Part shown: piece by piece, positions 23,874-48,490 of the stretch
Layout of the letters: each line of letters opens with the position of its first letter
Position numbering within the stretch: position 1 is the first letter of the stretch
NCBI GenBank assembly: GCA_958295465.1
Contig: OY282353.1
Location: 5,579,664-5,643,663, forward strand
DNA: 64,000 nt
Direction of reading: 5' to 3'
Origin: an uncultured Gammaproteobacteria bacterium
GTDB taxonomy: Bacteria; Pseudomonadota; Gammaproteobacteria; HK1
Translations under genes and position numbers: made by a program
The notes under the pieces: model-generated
What the model saw: only the letters and a program-made list of their open reading frames with translations
Told to the model about the DNA's origin: nothing
Database searches by the model: none

Positions 23874-24244
23874 GTCTCTGTCTGGTACGGGTCGGCGGGC
23901 GTGCGGTCGGCAGGGTACCGCCAAATCCGCCGCGCCGCATATGCGCTGTCAGGACGTTCGCGGGTAGCGGGCGGTTTCAGCATTAGCAATGCGCTCCGTG
24001 CCACTCCTGACTTCGCGCGCGCCATCGGCGGGTGGGGGCGGCAGCGTGTGCCTCAGGAAGAGACGTAATACAGATGGTCCTCCACGCTATCGGCGGTGGG
24101 GGCGCTTTCCGTGTCCACCAGCTCGCCTCGTGAGGTTCGTCGAAACCTGCCGGTCAAGTTGAGAGCGGCGGAACGGGCACACCCGACATGGTCGGGGAAA
24201 ACGGGATCGAAAGGGTAGTTCCGTCGTTGTGCCGGGCGGATAGG
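23874..24244. other. Gap without recognisable gene
   Basis: These 371 bases contain only short, unconvincing frames on either strand. I see no repeat shared with the rest of the window. Confidence 0.3.
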
Positions 24245-38153: not shown

Positions 38154-39401
38154 GTGGCAGGATCGGCGGACCTCCTGCCGCCGTGGTGCATCGTGAAGAC
38201 ACTCGGGGAAGCGAGCCCGGCCGCGCTACGGAAGCGGACCCTCGCCGCGTGCTGCGGCACGCACGGCGTCCAGGACGGGCTCACCGCGTCGATCTACGTC
38301 CTGCTTCCGATCCTGGCGCAGACCTTCGGGCTCGGCTACGCGCAGGTGGGCATGATCCGTGCCGTCCACGGCGGCGCCATGTGGGTGCTGGAGCTGCCCT
38401 CCGGCATGCTCTCGGAGCGGTTCGGGCAGCGCGGCCTGCTGGCGTTCGGACTGCTCTGCGGCGGGGCCGGGTACCTCGCCTTCTCGATGGCCGGCGGGTT
38501 CACCGGAGTGCTGCTCGGGCTCGGCATCGCGGGCTGCGGCGCCGCCTTCCAGCATTCGCTCTGCTCGTCGCTGGTGAGCGGGCAGTTCGAAGGCCCGATG
38601 CGGCGCACCGCGCTCGGGGCCTACAACGCGAGCGGCGACGCCGGCAAGCTCGCATTCACCGGGCTGGCGACGGCCCTCCTCGGCGCCGGCGCGGGCTGGC
38701 AGGGAGTGGCGTTCGGCTACGGCGCGATCGCGCTCACCGCGGGGGCCGGCCTGTTCCTGCTGTTGCGCGCGGTCCGGGCCGGAGGACGCGACACCCGCTC
38801 CGGCAGGGAGCGTGCGATGCGCAGCACCGATTGGGGGATCCGTCATCCGTTCGGGTTCACCACCCTCGCGTCGATCGTGTTTCTCGACATCGCGGTGCAG
38901 GACGGATTCCTGGTGTTCGTCGCCTTCCTGCTGCTTCAGAAGCAGGCGCCGGCGGGTCTGGCCGGCTTGGGCGTGGTGCTCACCCTCGCCGGCGGCATGG
39001 TGGGGAAGCTCGGATGCGGCCTGCTGGCCGCGCGCATCGGGGTGGTGCGGGCGCTCGTCCTGGTCGAGCTGCTGAGCGCCGCCGGCATCGTGGCCGTACT
39101 CCTCGCGCCGGTTACGCTCGCTCTCTGCCTGCTGCCCTTGGTGGGAGTGGTGCTGCAAGGCTCGTCCACGATCACCTACGGCACCGTCGGCGATCTGGTG
39201 GATGAACGTCGCCACACCCGCGGCTTCGCCCTCATCTACACCATCGTGAGCGGGGCGGCGGTCGTGGGGCCGATCGCGTTCGGCCTCGTCAGCGACGGGC
39301 TCGGACTCGGCGCGGCGATGCTCGCGATGGCCGTGGTCGTCGTACTGCCGATTCCCCTGTGCCTGCTGCTGCGCGGCGCCCTGCGCCCGGCCCTGTCCTG
39401 A
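38154..39401 (+). CDS. MFS transporter (fosmidomycin-resistance-like)
   Basis: A 415-residue inner-membrane transporter with about twelve hydrophobic helices. The first reads GTHGVQDGLTASIYVLLPIL, as in the fosmidomycin-resistance (Fsr) group, and a loop after helix 2 carries PSGMLSERFGQRG, the MFS motif A position. It starts at GTG 38154. A short gap separates it from the cyclase-gene remnant and the RiPP locus, so export of the peptide product is possible but not shown. Confidence 0.8.
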   Translation: MAGSADLLPPWCIVKTLGEASPAALRKRTLAACCGTHGVQDGLTASIYVLLPILAQTFGLGYAQVGMIRAVHGGAMWVLELPSGMLSERFGQRGLLAFGLLCGGAGYLAFSMAGGFTGVLLGLGIAGCGAAFQHSLCSSLVSGQFEGPMRRTALGAYNASGDAGKLAFTGLATALLGAGAGWQGVAFGYGAIALTAGAGLFLLLRAVRAGGRDTRSGRERAMRSTDWGIRHPFGFTTLASIVFLDIAVQDGFLVFVAFLLLQKQAPAGLAGLGVVLTLAGGMVGKLGCGLLAARIGVVRALVLVELLSAAGIVAVLLAPVTLALCLLPLVGVVLQGSSTITYGTVGDLVDERRHTRGFALIYTIVSGAAVVGPIAFGLVSDGLGLGAAMLAMAVVVVLPIPLCLLLRGALRPALS

Positions 39402-39494
39402 AGACGCCGCACCTGCCGCGGGACGGCTTCGCCCGAAATCCCGGGTCCGCCGCCGGTCGAGGCGGCGCGCTCCCCGATGAACCCGATACGGGGG

Positions 39495-39658
39495 CAGTGC
39501 CGGCGCTGAGACGGATCCTCACCGCACGCACCGACCCTCCGTCGCGGGCGCGTTACGTCCACATGCCTCGCCTCCTGGAGCGTCTGGACGCCGACCGGTT
39601 CCGGCCGGACCGCTGGTTCATGCCGACGTGGAAAGCCTTGCAGCTTCTCGACTTCTGA
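39495..39658 (+). pseudogene. 3' remnant of the lasso-cyclase-like gene
   Basis: The frame PALRRILTARTDPPSRARYV then PRLLERLDADRFRPDRWFMP and ALQLLDF is nearly identical to the last 54 codons of the complete asparagine-synthetase-like gene ending at 45819. The rest of this copy is missing. It overlaps the 3' end of the first glycosyltransferase-sulfotransferase gene exactly as the complete copy does, which marks a tandem duplication. Confidence 0.9.
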
Positions 39659-41444
39659 TCGGGTCCAGCCGCCGCCCCCCATCCCCTGCCTCTCCACCCA
39701 TGAGATCGTAGCCGAAGTAGTCGAGCGCGTCCCGATGCTCCCGGAACACGCGGTTGAACACCGCAATCTGCGAGGCATCCAGGCGCGCGATCTGGCGTTC
39801 GTTCATGTCGGTCAGCATCGCGTCGTAGGTGTTGTCCTTCACCGGCAGTCTCCGGCGCAGGTTCAGGTCGTCGAGCTCCGGCGCCAGGGTCCGGATCCGC
39901 TGCGCCACCCGCTCGGGCTCGGCGCACATCGCCTCGTAGGTGAAGAACACGCTGCAATCCCCGTATGTCTGCACGTTGCGCCGCTGCCAGGCGAGGCAGC
40001 GGGCGACGTGCAGAGCGGCCTCCTCCTCCAGGCTGCGTTCCTCGGCCACGAACTGGCTGCGGTAGTTGCGGCAGATGCCCTCGCAGACCGCGTAGGGGTT
40101 GCGCACCATGAACAGGAACTTCGCGTTGCGGAAGTGGCGGAGCAATTGATCGACGAGCAGCAGGAACGGCGGGGACTTGGTGACGAACACCGGCGCGCGG
40201 GGGTCCTGGGCGCTGGCCTGGAAGTACCATGCCTTGCGGTTGCGCGGCCAGTCGTAGCTGCGGGGGTCGGCGAAGCGGTCGATCCAGTGCTGGCGGGCGC
40301 CCCAGATCAGTCCGGGCTTGGGCTCTCCCGGCAGAGGGGGCCGGTAGGTCGTGGGTCCCGCGTAGCCGAGCATTCTCTTGCCTTCGCGGGGGAGGCTCCA
40401 GGCGGCCCGGCAGGTGGCCAGGGTGCGCTCCAGGAAGGTGGAGCCGCTGTTGTTGGGGCACACGGCGAACAGGTGGGTGGTCACCGTGTTGTCCAGATCA
40501 CGGCCGGCGCCGCTGACGCGCGTGCTGGAAGGGCGCCTGGCGGCCGAGCCCGTCCGGATTGCGGGGGGAGTCGCCTCGGCCATCTCGTCGCGGGCATCGC
40601 TCCAGAGCTTGAAATGGCGCGTGGGCGCGCGGGTGGGGTGGGCCCAGACCCATCGCAGCATGGCGTCGGGCGCCCAGGGTTTGACCGGATAGTTGAAGTG
40701 CAGCGCCCTGGCGTGTTCGGGGGCGAGGTTCTCGCGCGCGCGGATGGCGTGGGCCGAGGCGAGCAGATAGTTGTAGGTCGAGCTGACGAGGGTGCAGCGC
40801 CCGGCGAAGCATCGGTTGAGGAGGAGCTGGTCGGTATGGGGGGCGCGTGGGCCGGGCCAGGTGCGCGGGTGGACCATGTCGAGCAGGTCCGCGTAGCAGG
40901 CTCCGTCGGCGAGCCGTCCGTCGAAGAGGAAGAACCCGCTGTTGAACGTGTTCGAGAGCGCGGGAGCGTCAGCCGGGTCGGAAGCGCTCAGGGGTTCGAA
41001 GGTGCGGGCGTCGCGTCGCCCGCCGCCGAGGGCGACCTGGTCCGGGCAGCACAGCAGCGTGCCGGGAGCGTCGAACAGGGCGTCGAGCGGGGCGCGGACG
41101 AGCACGTCGCTGTCGTAGAAGAGCACCTTGCGGTAGCCGTGCAGCCGGAAGGCTTCGAGGGAGTAGAGGTACTCGCGCCCGCTGGCAAAGGCCGGATGGC
41201 CGGCGGCCAGATGGGCGAGGCGGTCCCGGAGCCTGGTGGACACCGTCTCGAACCGCACGCGGTCGGAGACGGCCTGGAGGGCGTCGCGCGCAGCTTGGGG
41301 GAGTGCGTCGTGGATGATGACGAGGTCGCCGTCGAAGCGTGGATGGTGCTTGAGGAAGGAGCCGAGCATGACGAGGGCGCCCGGGACGAAGGACTCGGTG
41401 GTGGCGGTGGCGAGGCAGACGCCGGAGGTGGACGAGGACTTCAT
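39618..41444 (-). CDS. GT8 glycosyltransferase-sulfotransferase fusion, copy 1
   Basis: A 608-residue two-domain enzyme. Residues ~10-285 are a GT8 (glycogenin/galactosyltransferase-type) domain: ESFVPGALVMLGSFLKHHP, the metal-binding FYDSDVLVRAPLD (DSD at 111-113), NTFNSGFFLFDG, HTDQLLLNR and the family C-terminal HFNYPVKPW. Residues ~325-590 are a PAPS sulfotransferase: the 5'-phosphosulfate loop CPNNSGSTFLER (about 329-340), VTKSPPFL, and the 3'-phosphate site FMVRNPYAVCEGICR (about 445-459). Expected substrates are the short precursor peptides encoded just upstream on the same strand (41508-41952). Copy 2 (45779-47605) has the same length and is nearly identical except at about residues 70-100. 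Confidence 0.85.
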   Translation of the reverse strand: MKSSSTSGVCLATATTESFVPGALVMLGSFLKHHPRFDGDLVIIHDALPQAARDALQAVSDRVRFETVSTRLRDRLAHLAAGHPAFASGREYLYSLEAFRLHGYRKVLFYDSDVLVRAPLDALFDAPGTLLCCPDQVALGGGRRDARTFEPLSASDPADAPALSNTFNSGFFLFDGRLADGACYADLLDMVHPRTWPGPRAPHTDQLLLNRCFAGRCTLVSSTYNYLLASAHAIRARENLAPEHARALHFNYPVKPWAPDAMLRWVWAHPTRAPTRHFKLWSDARDEMAEATPPAIRTGSAARRPSSTRVSGAGRDLDNTVTTHLFAVCPNNSGSTFLERTLATCRAAWSLPREGKRMLGYAGPTTYRPPLPGEPKPGLIWGARQHWIDRFADPRSYDWPRNRKAWYFQASAQDPRAPVFVTKSPPFLLLVDQLLRHFRNAKFLFMVRNPYAVCEGICRNYRSQFVAEERSLEEEAALHVARCLAWQRRNVQTYGDCSVFFTYEAMCAEPERVAQRIRTLAPELDDLNLRRRLPVKDNTYDAMLTDMNERQIARLDASQIAVFNRVFREHRDALDYFGYDLMGGEAGDGGRRLDPIRSREAARLSTSA

Positions 41445-41507
41445 CGGTGCGATGGGAAGGCGCAGATCGGGAGCCGGGGCGCCGGCTCCCGAACGGTCGG
41501 ATCGGCG

Positions 41508-41672
41508 TCAGGATGTTGGCCTGTAGGTGGCGTTTTCCGCAAAATTAGGATCGCTGCCGGTCCCGACTTCGCCGTCCACTGTCCGGATGGTCGGCTTGGC
41601 TCAGGGCTTCTTCGGCGCATCGGCCGGCGAGGCCGTGCGCGTATCAGCTACGGGGGGGAGGGATTCCGACAC
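41508..41672 (-). pseudogene. RiPP precursor P1 (lasso-type leader), nonsense codon
   Basis: Fifty-four codons aligned with P2. The start is GTG (ATG in P2), then VSESLPPVADTRTASPADAP and KKP. Codon 24 is TGA (41601-41603) where P2 has TGG (Trp), then AKPTIRTVDGEVGTG and the putative core SDPNFAENATYRPTS. The conserved Glu, Tyr and C-terminal Ser are kept. TGA is a normal stop in neighbouring genes, so this copy is probably silent. Confidence 0.75.
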
Positions 41673-41775
41673 GACTCGATTCTCCGTCAGGTAGTCCACG
41701 GGCCATCAGCGCCGACCTTGGCAAACAACCAGGCACTGCGGCACAAGATTCTATACCCGAGCGGTCGGATCGGCG

Positions 41776-41952
41776 TCAGGACGTTGGCCTGTAGTTGGCG
41801 TTTTCAACGTTCTTGTCGCCTTCCGGGCCAGTCCCGACTTCGCCGTCCACTGTCCGGATGGTCGGCTTGGCCCAGGGCTTCTTCGGCGCATCGGCCGGCC
41901 GCGAGGCCGTGTGCGTATCGGCTACGGGGGGAGGGGAGGTGGATTTCGACAT
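41776..41952 (-). CDS. RiPP precursor peptide P2 (lasso-type leader), intact
   Basis: A 58-residue peptide starting at ATG 41952 with GGAGAG upstream. The leader (MSKSTSPPPVADTHTASRPA then DAPKKPWAKPTIRTVDGEV) has a K-K-P-aromatic-x-K-P-x-I core like lasso leaders (YxxPxLxxxG). The putative core is GTGPEGDKNVENANYRPTS. Features shared with P1, P3 and P4 are a Glu followed two to four residues later by Tyr, a nearby Pro, and a C-terminal Ser. A Gly1-Glu9 macrolactam (from GPEGDKNVE) is one possible lasso ring. The terminal Ser matches the site phosphorylated by HPrK-like kinases in paeninodin. It is the only precursor in the window that is intact as read. Confidence 0.75.
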   Translation of the reverse strand: MSKSTSPPPVADTHTASRPADAPKKPWAKPTIRTVDGEVGTGPEGDKNVENANYRPTS

Positions 41953-42027
41953 GACTCGACTCTCCATATTGGTCCACAAGCCATCAGTGCCGGCTTTGGC
42001 AAACGTCCGGGCGTCGCGGCACAAGAT

Positions 42028-42081
42028 TTTACACCTGTTTGCACGACAGGCGACGAATCTTCAATGCACCCCGTCCCGGTC
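42028..42081 (-). pseudogene. Duplicated polA 3' end
   Basis: About 50 bases (GCATTGAAGATTCGTCGCCT then GTCGTGCAAACAGGTG on the minus strand) match the last codons and downstream bases of polA at 48700-48745 (GCATTGAAGGTTCGTCGCCT). The copy is cut by the MITE-like sequence at 42083. It shows that polA was the original upstream neighbour of both precursor groups. Confidence 0.8.
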
Positions 42082-42082
42082 C

Positions 42083-42165
42083 AGCAATTTCCGCCAAGCC
42101 CGACAACGTCCCATGAATCGCAACGATCGGATGCTCGGGCGGCCGGCATGGCCGCGAAATCCCGG
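42083..42165 (+). mobile_element. Truncated MITE-like element
   Basis: From CAGCAATTTCCGCCAA through GCGAAATCCCG it matches the reverse complement of the complete element at 43740-43861 over about 80 bases, but the other terminal repeat is missing. Confidence 0.6.
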
Positions 42166-42338
42166 TCATGCAATCGAGTTCAAGGCCCGGAAGCACCATG
42201 ATCGGTCGTCCGGGGCAGGTCAGCCACCGACCGTGACCTCCCACGTCGCATCCGCGGATGGATCCCGGACCGCCCTGTGCCCCACCATGTAGCAATAGAG
42301 GCTGGTCGGGATGAAATCCAGGCGTCCTTCTCCGGGCC

Positions 42339-42503
42339 ATGGCACGGTTCTTTCCATCAGCGTCCGACCGTGACGAGCTCGCCACCAAGGCCGACCTCGC
42401 CACCCTCGAAACGCGCATGACCGCCACACTCTACCGCGCCCTCTGGTTCCAGGGCGGAGCCGTCATCGCCATCCTCACCGCGCTTCGGTTCCTGCCGATC
42501 TGA
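42339..42503 (+). CDS. Short DUF1640-like coiled-coil membrane peptide
   Basis: A 54-residue frame, MARFFPSASDRDELATKADL then ATLETRMTATLYRALWFQ, ending in a hydrophobic helix (GGAVIAILTALRFLPI). It is a shortened relative of the protein at 23550-23873, keeping one ATKADLA unit and the membrane helix. It could be a functional small protein or a remnant. Its position between the precursor group and the kinase gene gives no functional clue. Confidence 0.45.
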   Translation: MARFFPSASDRDELATKADLATLETRMTATLYRALWFQGGAVIAILTALRFLPI

Positions 42504-42719
42504 CCATGCGCCCGGAACACGATTTCTCCCGGGGAGAACGAGGCGTGACGGCGCGAAAGGACGCACAGGGTGGGAATCCGGTCGTCGTCTCGCTGGACGT
42601 CCTTGACGTGTTTCCCGGCGTTGCGGCAGGAGAGCGGCAACGGCGGCCCGTGCGGACCACGCCGGCGGGATATACGACTTCGATTGTTTCGATCAGCTAC
42701 GAAGACTTCTCGATGTCAA

Positions 42720-43688
42720 TCAGAGATCCGCACCCCTCGGGAGAATACGGCGATTGACCGCAGCCGGCCCTGCCTCGCGCAGGTGCGCCTCGACGTGGTC
42801 CGCCAGCGCGTCCAGCAGGAACGGATGCCGTGGCCGCGTCATCCGCGCCACCGGCACGCGCCGCGCCGTCGCGGTGATGGTGCGGAAATGGGCGAGGCGT
42901 TGTCCCATCGCGCTCATCACCCGCCGGCGGTGGGTGTTTCTCCACAGCAACCGGAAGGCGCTGCCGGGCGGCGCGGGTTCGATGCCGATGTCCGGGTGGT
43001 CGTCGGCTTCCAGCACGAAGGCGGCGCACACCGGCAGCGGCACGGCGCAGGCCCGTTGCGCCGGCATCCAGTACTTCTCCAACCCCCGCTGCACCCTCGA
43101 CTGCGCCCGCCCTCGCCAGTGCATCTCGTCCAGGGTGTTCGCCCACAGCCGCTGGTGCGCGAACGCGGGCAGCGCCACGGGACGACCGCCGGCGTCCAGC
43201 GTCACGCCGGTCACGTCGTCGGCGAGCAAGGGGTAGCCGCGCTCGACGAGCGCCGCGGCCAGCGAAGACTTGCCGATGCCGCTCCTGCCGAGCAGCAGCA
43301 CCGCGCCGGCCTCGGTGGCGACGGAGGCGGCGTGCAGCGTGGCCACGCCGCGCTGTTGCAGCAGAGCGGTGAACGGGGAGCTTGCGAAGAAGGCGACGAC
43401 CTCGCCATCATCCGTACCGAGCGGCTCGACCAGCATGTCGCGTCCGCCGGTGACCAGATACCGGGCGACGTCCTCCACGCGCATGAGGAAGGCGCCGGGT
43501 CGGGCCTGCCAGCGATTGCTGCGGATCGAGTGGCCGTTGCAGGCGGGGAGGGTCGCGGGAACGGCGCCGAGGCGCACGGTCACGTCCGGTTCGAAGGCGC
43601 CGGAATCGGGCAGGGGGTCGAAGGGCAGGGCGACGGCGGAGCGTATGCGCAGATCGTAGGCGCGATACCAGTACGTCGAGCCGCTCAT
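42720..43688 (-). CDS. HPr-kinase-like protein (putative RiPP precursor kinase)
   Basis: A 322-residue protein starting MSGSTYWYRAYDLRIRSAVA. The C-terminal half has the HPrK fold signatures: LHAASV (about 119), Walker A GRSGIGKSSLA (about 134-144) and YPLLADDVTGV (about 152-162). It lacks the length and N-terminal domain of true bifunctional HPrK/P. Homologues in lasso clusters (paeninodin type) phosphorylate the precursor's C-terminal Ser, and all precursors here end in Ser. It is divergently arranged with the cyclase gene across a 274-base region that contains a MITE-like element. Confidence 0.75.
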   Translation of the reverse strand: MSGSTYWYRAYDLRIRSAVALPFDPLPDSGAFEPDVTVRLGAVPATLPACNGHSIRSNRWQARPGAFLMRVEDVARYLVTGGRDMLVEPLGTDDGEVVAFFASSPFTALLQQRGVATLHAASVATEAGAVLLLGRSGIGKSSLAAALVERGYPLLADDVTGVTLDAGGRPVALPAFAHQRLWANTLDEMHWRGRAQSRVQRGLEKYWMPAQRACAVPLPVCAAFVLEADDHPDIGIEPAPPGSAFRLLWRNTHRRRVMSAMGQRLAHFRTITATARRVPVARMTRPRHPFLLDALADHVEAHLREAGPAAVNRRILPRGADL

Positions 43689-43739
43689 GGGATGGCGCCT
43701 CGCACGGTGAGCGTCGTGTTCGCCGTCACGATCGCCGGC

Positions 43740-43861
43740 CAGCAATTCCCGCCAACGTCTCGAACAGGGTCGTGCCATCGGGATTTCGCGGTCTTTTCTG
43801 CTGCCTGGGCGTCTGGTCGTAGCGATTCGATGGACGTTTGCGGGCTTGGCGGGAATTGCTG
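43740..43861. mobile_element. MITE-like element with 16-bp terminal inverted repeats
   Basis: A 122-base segment bounded by CAGCAATTCCCGCCAA and its exact reverse complement. It has no coding capacity and no clear target-site duplication. It fills nearly half of the region between the divergent kinase and cyclase genes and could affect their promoters. A truncated relative is at 42083. Confidence 0.65.
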
Positions 43862-43962
43862 ATCGTCAGCCAATCCGCCGGGACGCTGGAAATACCGATG
43901 GTTCGCGCGGTTGACGAGGCGGGGATACGTGCGGTGTGGCGGATGGAGAAGGTGGCTTCCCG

Positions 43963-45819
43963 ATGAATGCGCTCTGCGGATTCCACCTGCACGATGCGCG
44001 CGCCACGCACGGGCTGGCCGCCATGCTGGCCGCGCTGTCCGACTACGGGAAGACCTGCGCGCAATGGACGGAGGGAGCCGTCGGCCTCGGCTGCCGGTCT
44101 GCGGCGGCCACGAACGGGGGCGGCGCCGGGCGCTCTCCCTGCCTCGACCGCGACGCGGGCATCGCGGTGACCGCGGACGCCCGCCTCGACGACCGCGACA
44201 CGCTGTGCAGCGCGCTCGGCGTTCCCCACGCCGAGCGTTCCGCCCTCACCGAGGGCAGCCTCATCCTCCGGGCCTGGTCGCGCTGGGGCCGGGAGTGTCC
44301 GAACCACCTGCTCGGCGACTACGCCTTCGCCGTGTGGGATGCAAGGAAGCGCACGCTCTTCTGCGCCCGGGACCACGCCGGCGCCAGGCCCTTCTACTAC
44401 GCCTTTCCTCCGAGCGGCTTCGTCTTCGCCAGCGCCGTGGAAGCCGTCCTCGCCATGCCGGGCGTCTCCGGCGCGCTGGACGAGGCCACCGTGGCGTCCT
44501 TTCTGACGGGTTCCGGCTGGAACACGACCACCCGCACGTTCTTCAAGGAGGTGCGCAAGCTGCCGCCCGGCCATACGCTCACCATCGAGGGAGACCCATT
44601 TCCGGGAGATGGCCCGCGGACGCGCATCGAGCGCTATTGGCGTCCCGAACGCACGCCGGCGGCGCGGCCGGCCTCCGACGACGCCCATGCCGAGGAGCTC
44701 CTGGATCTGTATGCACGTGCGGTCAAGGACCGCCTGTGCGGCGGGCCGGTGGGCGTACACCTGAGCGGGGGCCTGGACTCGTCGAGCATCGCGGTGCTCA
44801 CGGCCCGGGAGCTGCGCCGCCGGGGGCGCCCGCCGCCGCCCGCGTTCAGTTGGCTGCCGGCGTTGGACGGCGAAACGCCGGCGCCGGCGCATGCGAAGGA
44901 GTACGCGCTCATCGACGCGGTGTGCGCCCAGGAAGACTTGCAGGTGTCGCACTGCGCCCTGACACCCGGCGACGTGCTTGCCGTGCTGCGTCGCGACGGC
45001 GCCTTCCCCGGGGTATACGTCCAGATGAACGAGGAAGCGGTGCAGCGCTGCGCGGCGGAGTCGGGGGTGCGGGTGCTGCTGTCGGGCTGGGGCGGGGACG
45101 AGGGCGTCTCGTTCAACGGCCGGGGACTTCACGAGCAGTTGCTTCTCGGCGGGCGCTGGCTGAGGCTGGCCGCCGAATGCCGCGCCGGCCCCCACCCGTT
45201 CCGAACCTTGGCGCAAGTCGCGCTGTCGCTCGCGCATCCCCGCCTCCCGATCCACCTGCACAGGCGGTTGCGGGGAAAGGAGCCGCGCCGCCGGCGCTGG
45301 CTCATCGACCCGGCGTTCGCGCGGCGAGCGAAGCCCTTGCCCGTGGAGGTGTTCAGGTCGATCGGCGTACGGCGCACGCAGACGCGACTTCTGCGTAGCG
45401 GGCTGCTGAGCCAGCGCATCGAGGGCTGGGCCGCGAGCGGCGCGCGCCACGGCCTCGAGTACCGATACCCGCTGCTGGATCGCCGGCTGCTGGAGTTCGC
45501 ACTGGGCCTGCCGCCGGAGCAGTTCCGGCGCGGGCGGTGGAGCCGGTGGCTGATGCGCCACGCCCTGGACGGCGTCCTGCCGCCGGAGATCTGCTGGAAC
45601 CCGGACAAGACCGACCCTGCCCGGATCGAACCGTTGTTCGACGCCTTCGCCGGGGCGGCGCCGGCGCTGAGACGGATCCTCACCGCACGTGCCGAACCGC
45701 CGTCGCGGGCGCGTTACGTCCACCTGCCTCGCCTCCTGGAGCGTCTGGACACCGACCGGTTCCGGCCGGACCGCTGGTTCATGCCGACGTGGAAAGCCTT
45801 GCAGCTTCTCGACTTCTGA
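43963..45819 (+). CDS. Asparagine synthetase homologue, lasso-cyclase-like
   Basis: A 618-residue AsnB-type protein. The N-terminal glutaminase-like domain starts MNALCGFHLHDAR; its Cys is residue 5, so the N-terminal nucleophile of true AsnB is probably not formed. GDYAFAVWDARKRTLFCARD is conserved. The synthetase domain has the PPi loop HLSGGLDSSS (about 266-275) and LSGWGGDEGVSFNG. In lasso pathways this protein adenylates an Asp/Glu side chain and closes the macrolactam. The short precursors, kinase and tailoring enzymes nearby support that role over asparagine synthesis. Its 3' end overlaps the convergent GT-sulfotransferase copy 2 by 41 bases. ATG 43963 is chosen; GTG 43936 is possible. 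Confidence 0.8.
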   Translation: MNALCGFHLHDARATHGLAAMLAALSDYGKTCAQWTEGAVGLGCRSAAATNGGGAGRSPCLDRDAGIAVTADARLDDRDTLCSALGVPHAERSALTEGSLILRAWSRWGRECPNHLLGDYAFAVWDARKRTLFCARDHAGARPFYYAFPPSGFVFASAVEAVLAMPGVSGALDEATVASFLTGSGWNTTTRTFFKEVRKLPPGHTLTIEGDPFPGDGPRTRIERYWRPERTPAARPASDDAHAEELLDLYARAVKDRLCGGPVGVHLSGGLDSSSIAVLTARELRRRGRPPPPAFSWLPALDGETPAPAHAKEYALIDAVCAQEDLQVSHCALTPGDVLAVLRRDGAFPGVYVQMNEEAVQRCAAESGVRVLLSGWGGDEGVSFNGRGLHEQLLLGGRWLRLAAECRAGPHPFRTLAQVALSLAHPRLPIHLHRRLRGKEPRRRRWLIDPAFARRAKPLPVEVFRSIGVRRTQTRLLRSGLLSQRIEGWAASGARHGLEYRYPLLDRRLLEFALGLPPEQFRRGRWSRWLMRHALDGVLPPEICWNPDKTDPARIEPLFDAFAGAAPALRRILTARAEPPSRARYVHLPRLLERLDTDRFRPDRWFMPTWKALQLLDF

Positions 45820-47605
45820 TCGGGTCCAGCCGCCGCCCCCCACCCCCTGCCTCTCCACCCATGAGATCGTAGCCGAAGTAGTCGAGCGCGTCCCGATGCT
45901 CCCGGAACACGCGGTTGAACACCGCAATCTGCGAGGTGTCGAGGCGCGCGATCTGGCGTTCGTTCATGTCGGCCAGCATCGCGTCGTAGGTGTTCTCCTT
46001 CACCGGCAGTCTCCGGCGCAGGTTCAGGTCGTCGAGCTCCGGCGCCAGGGCCCGGATCCGCTGCGCCACCCGCTCGGGCTCGGCGCACATCGCCTCGTAG
46101 GTGAAGAACACGCTGCAATCCCCGTATGTCCGGACGTTGCGCCGCTGCCAGGCGAGGCAGCGGACGACGTGCAGGGCGGCCTCCTCCTCCAGGCTGCGTT
46201 CCTCGGCCACGAACTGGCTGCGGTAGTTGCGGCAGATGCCCTCGCAGACCGCGTAGGGGTTGCGCACCATGAACAGGAACTTCGCGTTGCGGAAGTGGCG
46301 GAGCAATTGATCGACGAGCAGCAGGAACGGCGGGGACTTGGTGACGAACACCGACGCTCGGGGGTCCTGGGCGCTGGCCTGGAAGTACCATGCCTTGCGG
46401 TTGCGCGGCCAGTCGTAGCTGCGGGGGTCGGCGAAGCGGTCGATCCAGTGCTGGCGGGCGCTCCAGATCAGTCCGGGCTTGGGCTCTCCCGGCAGAGGGG
46501 GCCGGAAGGTCGTGGGTCCCGCGTAGCCGAGCATCCTCTTGCCTTCGCGGGGGAGGCTCCAGGCGGCCCGGCAGGTGGCCAGGGCGTGCTCCAGGAAGGT
46601 GGAGCCGCTGTTGTTGGGGCACACGGCGAACAGGTGGGTGGTCACCGTGTTGTCCAGATCACGGCCGGCGCCGCTGACGCGCGTGCTGGAGGAGCGCTTG
46701 GCGGCCGAGCCCGTCCGGGCTGCGGGGGGAGTCGCCTCGTCCATCTCGTCGCGGGCATCGCTCCAGAGCTTGAAATGGCGTGTGGGTGCGCGGTCGGGGT
46801 GGGTCCAGACCCATCGCAGCATGGCGTCGGGCGCCCAGGGTTTGACCGGATAGTTGAAGTGCAGCGCCCTGGCGTGTTCGGGGGCGAGGTTCTCGCGCGC
46901 GCGGATGGCGTGGGCCGAGGCGAGCAGATAGTTGTAGGTCGAGCTGACGAGGGTGCAGCGCCCGGCGAAGTAGCGGTTGAGGAGGAGCTGGTCGGTATGA
47001 GGCGCGAGGGGGCCGGGCCAGGTGTGCGGGTGGATCATGTCGAGGAGGTCCGCGTAGCAGGTTCCGTCGGCGAGGCGTCCGTCGAGGAGGAAGAACCCGC
47101 TGTTGAACGTGTTCGAAAGTGCTGGGGCGTCGGCCGGGTCGGCGCAGGCCAGAGGCTTGAAGGTGCGGGCGTCGCGTCGCCCGCCGCCGAGGGCGACGTA
47201 GTCCGGGCAGCACAGCAGCGTGCCGGGAGCGTCGAACAGGGCGTCGAGCGGGGCGCGGACGAGCACGTCGCTGTCGTAGAAGAGCACCTTGCGATAGCCG
47301 CGCAGCCGGAAGGCTTCGAGGGAGTAGAACTCGCCCAGCCGGGCGGCCAGGCGCGCCTGCACGGCGCCCAGGGCGGCAAGGCGTTCGCGCAGCTCGGGCG
47401 ACACCGTCTCGAACCGCACGCGGTCGGAGACGGCCTGGAGGGTGTCGCGCGCGGCCTGGGGGAGTGCGTCGTGGATGATGACGAGGTCACCGTCGAAGCG
47501 TGGATGGTGCTCGAGGAAGGAGCCGAGCATGACGAGGGCGCCCGGGACGAAGGATTCGGTGGTGGCGGTGGCGAGGCAGATGTCGGAGGTGGACGGGGAT
47601 TTCAT
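45779..47605 (-). CDS. GT8 glycosyltransferase-sulfotransferase fusion, copy 2
   Basis: A 608-residue protein nearly identical to copy 1, with the same GT8 motifs (FYDSDVLVRAPLD, NTFNSGFFLLDG, HFNYPVKPW) and sulfotransferase motifs (CPNNSGSTFLEH, FMVRNPYAVCEGICR). The main difference is about residues 70-100, where copy 1 has RDRLAHLAAGHPAFASGREY and this copy RERLAALGAVQARLAARLGE. That stretch lies just before the DSD motif and may affect acceptor choice. ATG 47605 is chosen to match copy 1. It lies downstream of P3 and P4 on the same strand. Confidence 0.85.
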   Translation of the reverse strand: MKSPSTSDICLATATTESFVPGALVMLGSFLEHHPRFDGDLVIIHDALPQAARDTLQAVSDRVRFETVSPELRERLAALGAVQARLAARLGEFYSLEAFRLRGYRKVLFYDSDVLVRAPLDALFDAPGTLLCCPDYVALGGGRRDARTFKPLACADPADAPALSNTFNSGFFLLDGRLADGTCYADLLDMIHPHTWPGPLAPHTDQLLLNRYFAGRCTLVSSTYNYLLASAHAIRARENLAPEHARALHFNYPVKPWAPDAMLRWVWTHPDRAPTRHFKLWSDARDEMDEATPPAARTGSAAKRSSSTRVSGAGRDLDNTVTTHLFAVCPNNSGSTFLEHALATCRAAWSLPREGKRMLGYAGPTTFRPPLPGEPKPGLIWSARQHWIDRFADPRSYDWPRNRKAWYFQASAQDPRASVFVTKSPPFLLLVDQLLRHFRNAKFLFMVRNPYAVCEGICRNYRSQFVAEERSLEEEAALHVVRCLAWQRRNVRTYGDCSVFFTYEAMCAEPERVAQRIRALAPELDDLNLRRRLPVKENTYDAMLADMNERQIARLDTSQIAVFNRVFREHRDALDYFGYDLMGGEAGGGGRRLDPIRSREAARLSTSA

Positions 47606-47627
47606 TGGCGGGATGGGACGGCGCAGC

Positions 47628-47861
47628 TCAGAAGCCGGCACGCCGGCTCCCGAACGGTCGGATCGGCATCAGGACGTTGGTCCAGGGCTTCTTCGGCGCC
47701 TCGGCCGGCGGGGCCGTGTGCGCATCGGCTACAGCCCGGTATCCGGCCCGCTTCGCAGCGGCGCTGAACCGGCGCCCGATGGACTGGCCGGACATCCCGA
47801 ACACGCTTGCGGCCGGGTTGACGGGGGCGGGGACCGCGGCGGGGGTGGCGAGGTCGTTCAT
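47628..47861 (-). pseudogene. Integrase fragment fused to a RiPP leader remnant
   Basis: The open frame starts MNDLATPAAVPAPVNP (the integrase N-terminus) and jumps to ASVFGMSGQSIGRRFSAAAK (an internal integrase piece). It then enters VADAHTAPPAEAPKKPWT, a precursor leader that ends abruptly before any core. The integrase parts match 21489-22352 closely. It is a chimera created by recombination, with the integrase upstream region (to about 47905) also copied. Confidence 0.8.
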
Positions 47862-47916
47862 GGCGTGAGCGCCGGGTCAGGAAAGGACGCTGGCAACGGC
47901 GTTAGCGCCCTGGCCT

Positions 47917-48098
47917 TCAGGATGGTTGGTAAATCATCGTCTCGATCACGTTCCGGGGGTCCACTTCCACGCTGCTCTCGACTTCGCCGTACACTGTCCG
48001 GATGGTCGGCTTGGTCCAGGGCTTCTTCGGCGCATCGGCCGGCGAGGCCGTGTGCGTATCAGCTACGGGGGGGGGGGGGGGGGGGGGGATTCCGACAT
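47917..48098 (-). pseudogene. RiPP precursor P3, out of frame at a 22-nt poly-C tract
   Basis: ATG 48098 begins MSES and then a run of Pro codons from 22 consecutive C. As read, the frame then hits TAG. One more C (or two fewer) would restore a peptide continuing VADTHTASPADAPKKPWTK, PTIRTVYGEVESSVEVDP and RNVIETMIYQPS. The body keeps KKPW, the Glu-x-x-x-Tyr spacing, Pro and the terminal Ser. It could be a phase-variable gene or an artefact of homopolymer length in the assembly. Confidence 0.65.
48067..48088. repeat. 22-nt G/C homopolymer in precursor P3
   Basis: Twenty-two consecutive G on the plus strand (C on the coding strand) lie seven codons or fewer after the P3 start codon. The other precursors have interrupted C tracts of 6-7 at the same site. 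Confidence 0.85.
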
Positions 48099-48311
48099 GA
48101 CTCGATTCTCCGTCAGGTAGTCCACAAGCCATCAGCGCCGACCTTGGCGAACTTGTCGATGAGTTCATCTGCCCTTCCTCCCGAAGACCCGACAAGTGTA
48201 GTCCCCGGGGGACCCTGGACTTACCCCGATCTCGTAGACGGTTGATGGCACGGTCAATCCTCCTTGGCGATCGCCCATCCTTGATCTTGGTGGCGGGATG
48301 GTAGTCGAGGG

Positions 48312-48490
48312 TCAGGACGGAGGGGTATTGTAGGTGGTTTCAAGGCCGGGGACCCTTGTGTCGGGGCCGCTGCGTACTTCGCCATCTACCGTCTGGATCT
48401 TCGGCCTGTTCCAAGGCTTTTTCGGTGTCCCGGACGGGGAAGCCGTGTCCGTGTGCGTCTCGGTCTCCGGGGGGGTTCCGGCATTGGCAT
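48312..48490 (-). pseudogene. RiPP precursor P4, frameshift at a 7-nt poly-C tract
   Basis: From ATG 48490 the frame MPMPEPP runs into a 7-C tract (8 C would keep frame). After the shift it reads ETHTDTASPSGTPKKPWNRP, KIQTVDGEVRSG and the putative core PDTRVPGLETTYNTPPS. KKPW, DGEV, the Glu-x-x-Tyr spacing and terminal Ser are conserved. No alternative in-frame start is visible. Confidence 0.65.

Follow-up and report, generated by a model that had tools for sequence, protein, structure and literature searches.

A 64,000-nucleotide stretch (the window; positions 5579664-5643663) of the single-contig, 5.68-Mb genome of an uncultured gammaproteobacterium (G000) carries, between 39.5 and 48.5 kb, a locus that is best explained, with fairly good confidence, as a satellite of a multi-locus lasso-type RiPP (ribosomally synthesized and post-translationally modified peptide) system whose enzymes are partly encoded elsewhere in the genome. 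Sequence comparisons make it likely that this is an expanded, probably phase-variable lasso system with shared processing enzymes, whose products would be phosphorylated and possibly also glycosylated or sulfated. More tentatively, and at somewhat less than an even chance, we propose a phase-variable combinatorial lasso arsenal in which one leader peptidase serves roughly a dozen cyclase loci and around twenty precursors of a single genome, poly-C tracts switch the precursors (and the cyclase of one relative), and new glycosylation and/or sulfation of Tyr occurs beside a Ser phosphate. A reading made from the sequence alone (the sequence-only reading) had described an AsnB-like gene, an HPrK-like gene, and two genes fusing a GT8 glycosyltransferase to a sulfotransferase (GT8-ST) in this locus, and all of them were found in their places.

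In the mechanism we propose, only an in-frame poly-C tract would allow a precursor to be made. A PqqD-like B1 protein would bind the leader in trans, the kinase would phosphorylate the C-terminal Ser, and a single protein fusing a nucleotidyltransferase (NTase) to the B2 peptidase would remove the leader. The local cyclase would then link residue 1 to a ring Glu, yielding a lasso of 8-10 ring residues, after which the GT8 and sulfotransferase would modify the tail, most likely at an invariant Tyr, with a sugar, a sulfate, or a sulfated sugar. Each precursor would be turned on or off as its C tract slips, and the mixture of related peptides made by a population would change accordingly.

Cyclase family and putatively shared processing enzymes

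The window cyclase matches the lasso cyclase model NF033535 at 1.4e-105, a score under that model's cut-off of 525 bits, and asn_synth_AEB at 2e-51. Its N-terminus, MNALCG, places the Cys at residue 5, bearing out the sequence-only reading that this residue is not N-terminal, and the ATP-PPi motif SGGLDSS is intact. Reference lasso cyclases start with MSGICG or MSAICG; Escherichia coli AsnB starts with MCSI. A 100/100 branch of a maximum-likelihood tree separates nine AsnB/amidotransferases from 40 family members and 12 lasso-type cyclases; most of these 12 are from loci with B1, B2, or kinase genes. A long branch leads to the family, which is a clade by itself, and its nearest outgroup consists of cyclases with B1/B2 at their own locus; the order within the lasso side is less sure because some long branches meet. 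Tree placement and N-terminus (Cys at residue 5, not Cys2) together rule out a true asparagine synthetase. The lasso-type interpretation of the earlier reading is upheld by this grouping with lasso cyclases rather than asparagine synthetases, and by the homologous loci, most of which carry a short precursor gene that shares the leader and has a lasso-like core. Against orthologues, w is 0.41-0.51 for the cyclase and 0.27-0.54 for the GT8-ST.

Eleven full-length family cyclases are encoded in the genome, namely the window copy and ten others at 59-69% identity; there are also cyclase fragments and a pair of distant lasso cyclases. One genome from each of 84,980 species was scanned, which retrieved 51 related loci. 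With few exceptions, the close ones come from a small number of complete chromosomes submitted as uncultured Gammaproteobacteria or Pseudomonadales, and two loci, at 47-48%, come from other metagenome-assembled genomes (MAGs). Family relatives are present in at least six MAGs, and the window cyclase is kept in five relatives at 85-94%. The co-occurrence of gene types that had been suggested as a check is borne out, as a sulfotransferase accompanies 28, a kinase 27, and a GT8 25 of 37 family cyclase loci.

No B1 or B2 gene was found in the window locus. Just one lasso B2 leader peptidase is encoded in the genome; it exceeds its NCBIfam cut-off and is fused to NTP_transf_5 (locus L033); its neighbors are an ABC exporter, a cyclase, a GT8, a kinase, and a sulfotransferase. 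The B2 and NTP_transf_5 parts also adjoin each other in relatives (L059, L061, and L049). Matches to PqqD lie at genome positions 4465331, 3278248, and 2212140, two of them near family loci (L034 and L038) and the third in a different lasso locus (L039); the best NCBIfam match is lasso_PqqD_Bac (3.8e-19, 68.6 bits against a cut-off of 80). In two relatives, G005 and G012, several cyclases likewise go with a single B2; together with G000, these are the three expanded genomes examined. We infer that B1, B2, and the exporter act in trans on the products of many loci.

A second, distant lasso locus of this genome, L039 (G000:C1:2199001-2218000), encodes a near-identical pair of cyclases, a pair of kinases, a single PqqD, and three precursors (RKAWTEPRL..); one of the kinase genes has a C20 run upstream.

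Precursors and poly-C tracts

Five precursor segments in the window (Pa to Pe) have the leader APKKPWxKPTIRTVDGEV in whole or in part. The sequence-only reading had counted four short precursor-like genes with a shared leader; the common leader stands, and the count is revised to five leader-bearing segments of which Pa alone is intact. The leader repeat is not a product of chance, because it recurs in four copies of 107 nt at 65-100% identity within the window and the same leader is present in dozens of related loci, as detected with a leader hidden Markov model (HMM). The Pc frame can be read from a longer upstream open reading frame with a TTG start. About 15 kb from the locus, a relict fragment at 24010-24086 (minus strand) reads ..PPPPADGAREVRSGTERIANAETARYPRTS and has no leader motif, a trace of a former precursor.

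The leader HMM recovered the same precursor type in almost all related loci. Nearly all precursors have the motif WxxPx[I/V/L], with Trp where YxxPxL has Tyr. In 41 of 60 cores, a Gly is followed 7-8 residues on by a Glu, at ring position 8 or 9, compared with a mean of 10 and a maximum of 21 of 60 in 2000 shuffles of the cores. A C-terminal Ser ends 53 of the 60, and all 60 have a Tyr within the last eight residues, against a shuffle mean of 31; in 40 of them it is fifth from the end. These counts are somewhat favorable because the gathering model included core columns and near-identical orthologues were counted. If Gly is residue 1, the rings comprise 8-9 residues with Ser/Thr at -1; if the preceding Ser/Thr is residue 1, they comprise 9-10 (or 11), with Thr, Val, or Ile at -2. 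Several precursors, judged by eye, have Ala, Ser, or Cys where the others have Gly, and lasso rings are known to start with each of these residues. Thr, Val, or Ile at -2 is a feature of known lasso leaders (PMC10368454).

Shortly 3' of the start codon, 31 of 67 precursor genes carry a C-run of at least 9, and 28 of 67 one of at least 12. The reading state of the 23 precursors with an assignable start is in frame for 6 and out of frame for 17, close to the one in three expected of a free-running frame; the remaining eight of the 31 tract-bearing precursors have no frame score. Runs of at least 12 C number 15 in the whole genome, and seven of them are in precursor genes; precursor starts make up by our estimate about 0.03% of the stranded genome. 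Tract length differs between orthologues of Pd at one site, with C7 in the window, CCAC5 in L041 and L053, C21 in L042, and C13 in L043. Two near-identical cyclase paralogues of one relative (L062 and L065, ~11370) likewise have C13 (open) and C20 (frameshifted), respectively, at the same intragenic site; the cyclases of L034 and L060 have no tract there. By analogy, this layout is that of slipped-strand contingency genes, and the precursors are probably phase-variable through their poly-C tracts.

Long homopolymers are error-prone in sequencing. Because sequencers misread them, the ON/OFF states are not to be trusted; it is firmer that the tracts are present, where they lie, and that their lengths differ.

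Similar tracts were also observed elsewhere. A lone precursor in the same genome (L093, ~1500) has a GTG start followed by C26; a GT8 fragment lies nearby, and the locus has no listed cyclase match. In a member of the genus without these cyclases (G004), C15-C18 runs lie just after the start codons of genes for putative exported proteins (L129, L132, L133, and L139), which are likely to be other phase-variable genes. Most runs of at least 12 C in relatives without these cyclases lie outside precursors, some at contig ends. The very long runs C45 and C46, in L032 (15837, minus strand) and on G004:C27 (L130), are possibly assembly artefacts. In a search confined to a library of open-access papers, we found none that substantively joins lasso peptides with phase variation.

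Predicted tailoring and layout of the locus

The HPrK-like kinase displays the motif HAAS..GRSGIGKSS..LLADD, with the His-Lys-Asp-Asp set intact as in Paenibacillus reference loci; this set is the motif of lasso kinases (PMC9266682). Kinases of the PadeK type phosphorylate the C-terminal Ser of the precursor (PMC9266682), and the same residue is the predicted phosphorylation site here. Assignment to an HPr-rel-A system was ruled out, the match to HprK_rel_A (TIGR04352) reaching 34.5 bits against a cut-off of 200.

A predicted structure of the GT8-ST fusion has a mean pLDDT of 68, the sulfotransferase part being much better modeled than the GT8 part. In this model, the GT8 fold matches glycogenin, a Tyr glucosyltransferase, and also LgtC; the sulfotransferase fold matches the CurM sulfotransferase, STF9, and the tyrosylprotein sulfotransferase (TPST) TPST2. 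Profile searches agree with the fold matches, the similarity to TPSTs being marginal (E 0.02-0.1; TPST1 0.02). Taken with the invariant Tyr, these glycogenin- and TPST-like folds suggest Tyr glycosylation and/or sulfation of the peptide tail. The three precursors of the distant locus L039 lack the Tyr, and that locus has neither GT8 nor sulfotransferase, which counts for a link between the Tyr and the tailoring enzymes. The phosphorylated, glycosylated, and sulfated product suggested by the sequence-only reading remains a prediction.

The left and right GT8-ST copies (Table 1) are 92% identical. Through a 300-bp repeat, D1 (39491-39790 = 45652-45951, 96% identity), the left copy also includes the 3' end of the cyclase gene; the duplication thus took in a unit comprising cyclase end, GT8-ST, and precursors. 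Two relatives, L041 and L053, have one GT8-ST copy each within the fetched stretch, and L041 retains polA on the same side as in the window. The adjoining MFS transporter is a possible candidate for export or immunity, and its membership in the locus is only putative.

Table 1. Features of the locus and the putatively shared leader peptidase gene; positions refer to the window except for the last row
Feature	Position	Strand	Basis
MFS transporter adjoining the locus	38154..39401	+	PF07690 1.9e-23
Duplicated 3' end of cyclase gene, ~57 codons, overlapping the left GT8-ST gene	39485..39655	+	88% identity to residues 562-618
GT8-sulfotransferase fusion, left (duplicated) copy	39618..41444	-	PF01501 + PF13469
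Precursor Pb, TGA at 41603-41601 replacing the leader Trp codon	41508..41672	-	Core segment recovered by leader HMM
Precursor Pa, intact, 58 aa, core ..GT-GPEGDKNVENANYRPTS	41776..41952	-	Sequence; leader HMM 3.3e-16
HPrK-like kinase	42720..43778	-	PF07475 (Hpr_kinase_C) 2.8e-8; shorter start possible
Lasso-type macrolactam cyclase (AsnB-like)	43963..45819	+	NF033535 match, tree, motifs
GT8-sulfotransferase fusion, right copy	45779..47641	-	PF01501 + PF13469 (Sulfotransfer_3); glycogenin-like and sulfotransferase folds
Precursor remnant Pe, leader fused to post-core sequence, core lost	47628..47861	-	Sequence
Precursor Pc, ATG out of frame at C22 tract	47917..48098	-	Sequence
C22 poly-C tract just 3' of Pc start; candidate slippage switch	48067..48088	-	Sequence
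Precursor Pd, ATG out of frame at C7	48312..48490	-	Sequence
NTase-B2 fusion gene	L033 5872-7656	-	B2 + NTP_transf_5 nucleotidyltransferase

Alternative readings and relation to known systems

Several observations weigh against a switchable, tailored lasso system. Of the five window precursors, the assembly shows four to be broken or read out of frame, and the window locus is without B1 and B2. Core position 1 is ambiguous between Gly and the preceding Ser/Thr, and about a third of the cores fall off the Gly-Glu spacing. The GT8 part of the structure model is of low confidence, and the Tyr is kept in precursors of loci with no GT8 or sulfotransferase nearby. The ON/OFF calls are unreliable, and the tracts may not switch in vivo. 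A lasso-type system with neutral or partly artefactual tracts, in which the tract encodes a poly-proline leader spacer, the frame reflects consensus error, and nothing switches, would accommodate the last point. C20 runs are indeed hard to sequence, and precursors without tracts look otherwise normal. We nonetheless consider this reading unlikely, as runs of at least 12 C are so rare in the genome and yet fall in precursor genes in seven cases, other MAGs have these tracts too (L064 and L066 being from two whose contigs bear k141 names), their length differs among orthologues at one site, and the G004 runs just after the starts of putative exported proteins have the classic layout of contingency genes. 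The state of the window precursors could instead mean that the window copy is a decaying duplicate that produces little or nothing. The TGA in Pb, the lost core of Pe, the frames of Pc and Pd, the partial duplication of the cyclase gene as a fragment, and a w of 0.86 for the kinase against its orthologue all fit decay; this reading is improbable given that the cyclase, the kinase, and both GT8-ST frames are intact with their catalytic motifs present, that w is low for the cyclase and GT8-ST, that Pa is intact, and that five relatives keep the cyclase.

The enzymes may also act differently from what we propose. An AsnB-like enzyme that forms another amide, for instance in an unthreaded macrolactam or an amidated peptide, would make this a lasso-related RiPP class rather than a source of lassos, as the separate clade on its long branch, the NF033535 score under the curated cut-off, and the varying ring spacing would allow. 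We give this a low probability, since the genome retains a lasso B2 and a lasso-like PqqD, the Gly-to-Glu spacing is well above chance, and the nearest outgroup cyclases have B1/B2 at their own locus. Quite improbable is a GT8-ST that targets an exopolysaccharide or surface glycan and adjoins the peptide genes by coincidence. Such GT8 enzymes also build lipooligosaccharides, LgtC is among the fold matches, and the match of the sulfotransferase to TPST is weak; the frequency of both domains at cyclase loci across genomes speaks against coincidence, as does a Tyr that is invariant in family cores and missing from the precursors of L039. A probably switchable lasso system with shared processing enzymes is the reading we retain.

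We know of no lasso peptide with switchable precursors, nor of one with predicted sulfation. If the proposal is true, this would to our knowledge be the first lasso system with either property, and the bacterium would handle its modified peptides like a shuffled deck, as pathogens do their surface antigens. The system would also supply dozens of naturally varied cores, together with a single leader peptidase and many cyclases, for studying the specificity of lasso enzymes.

Among known systems, the paeninodin type (PadeA/B1/B2/C/K/N; pseudomycoidin; SyanA; BsfA) shares the lasso cyclase clade, separate B1 and B2, an HPrK-like kinase with His-Lys-Asp-Asp, a nucleotidyltransferase, the leader [Y/W]xxPx[L/I], and the C-terminal Ser (PMC9266682, PMC10368454). 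The system described here differs in having one B2 for many cyclases, the NTase fused to B2, a GT8 and a sulfotransferase, the invariant tail Tyr, and poly-C tracts in the precursors. Glycosylated lasso peptides resemble the predicted product in bearing a sugar on the lasso tail, with Ser glycosylation having been noted (PMC13352647). In pseudomycoidin, the nucleotidyltransferase homologue PsmN acts on phospho-Ser (PMC9266682), whereas here a glycogenin-type GT8 is present and Tyr is the suspected site. Glycogenin (for the GT8), TPST2, and the CurM sulfotransferase (for the sulfotransferase) are among the closest folds; the difference is that TPST similarity is marginal in sequence and that the two domains are fused in one protein. 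For the switching itself, the nearest likeness is to NapR/NapC of Neisseria gonorrhoeae, bacteriocin-like peptides for which a homopolymeric tract in the peptide gene, a poly-G of 6-12 in napR, is a predicted on/off switch (PMC11798529); the genes described here differ in encoding modified lasso-type precursors, in carrying C12-C26, and in comprising many paralogues.

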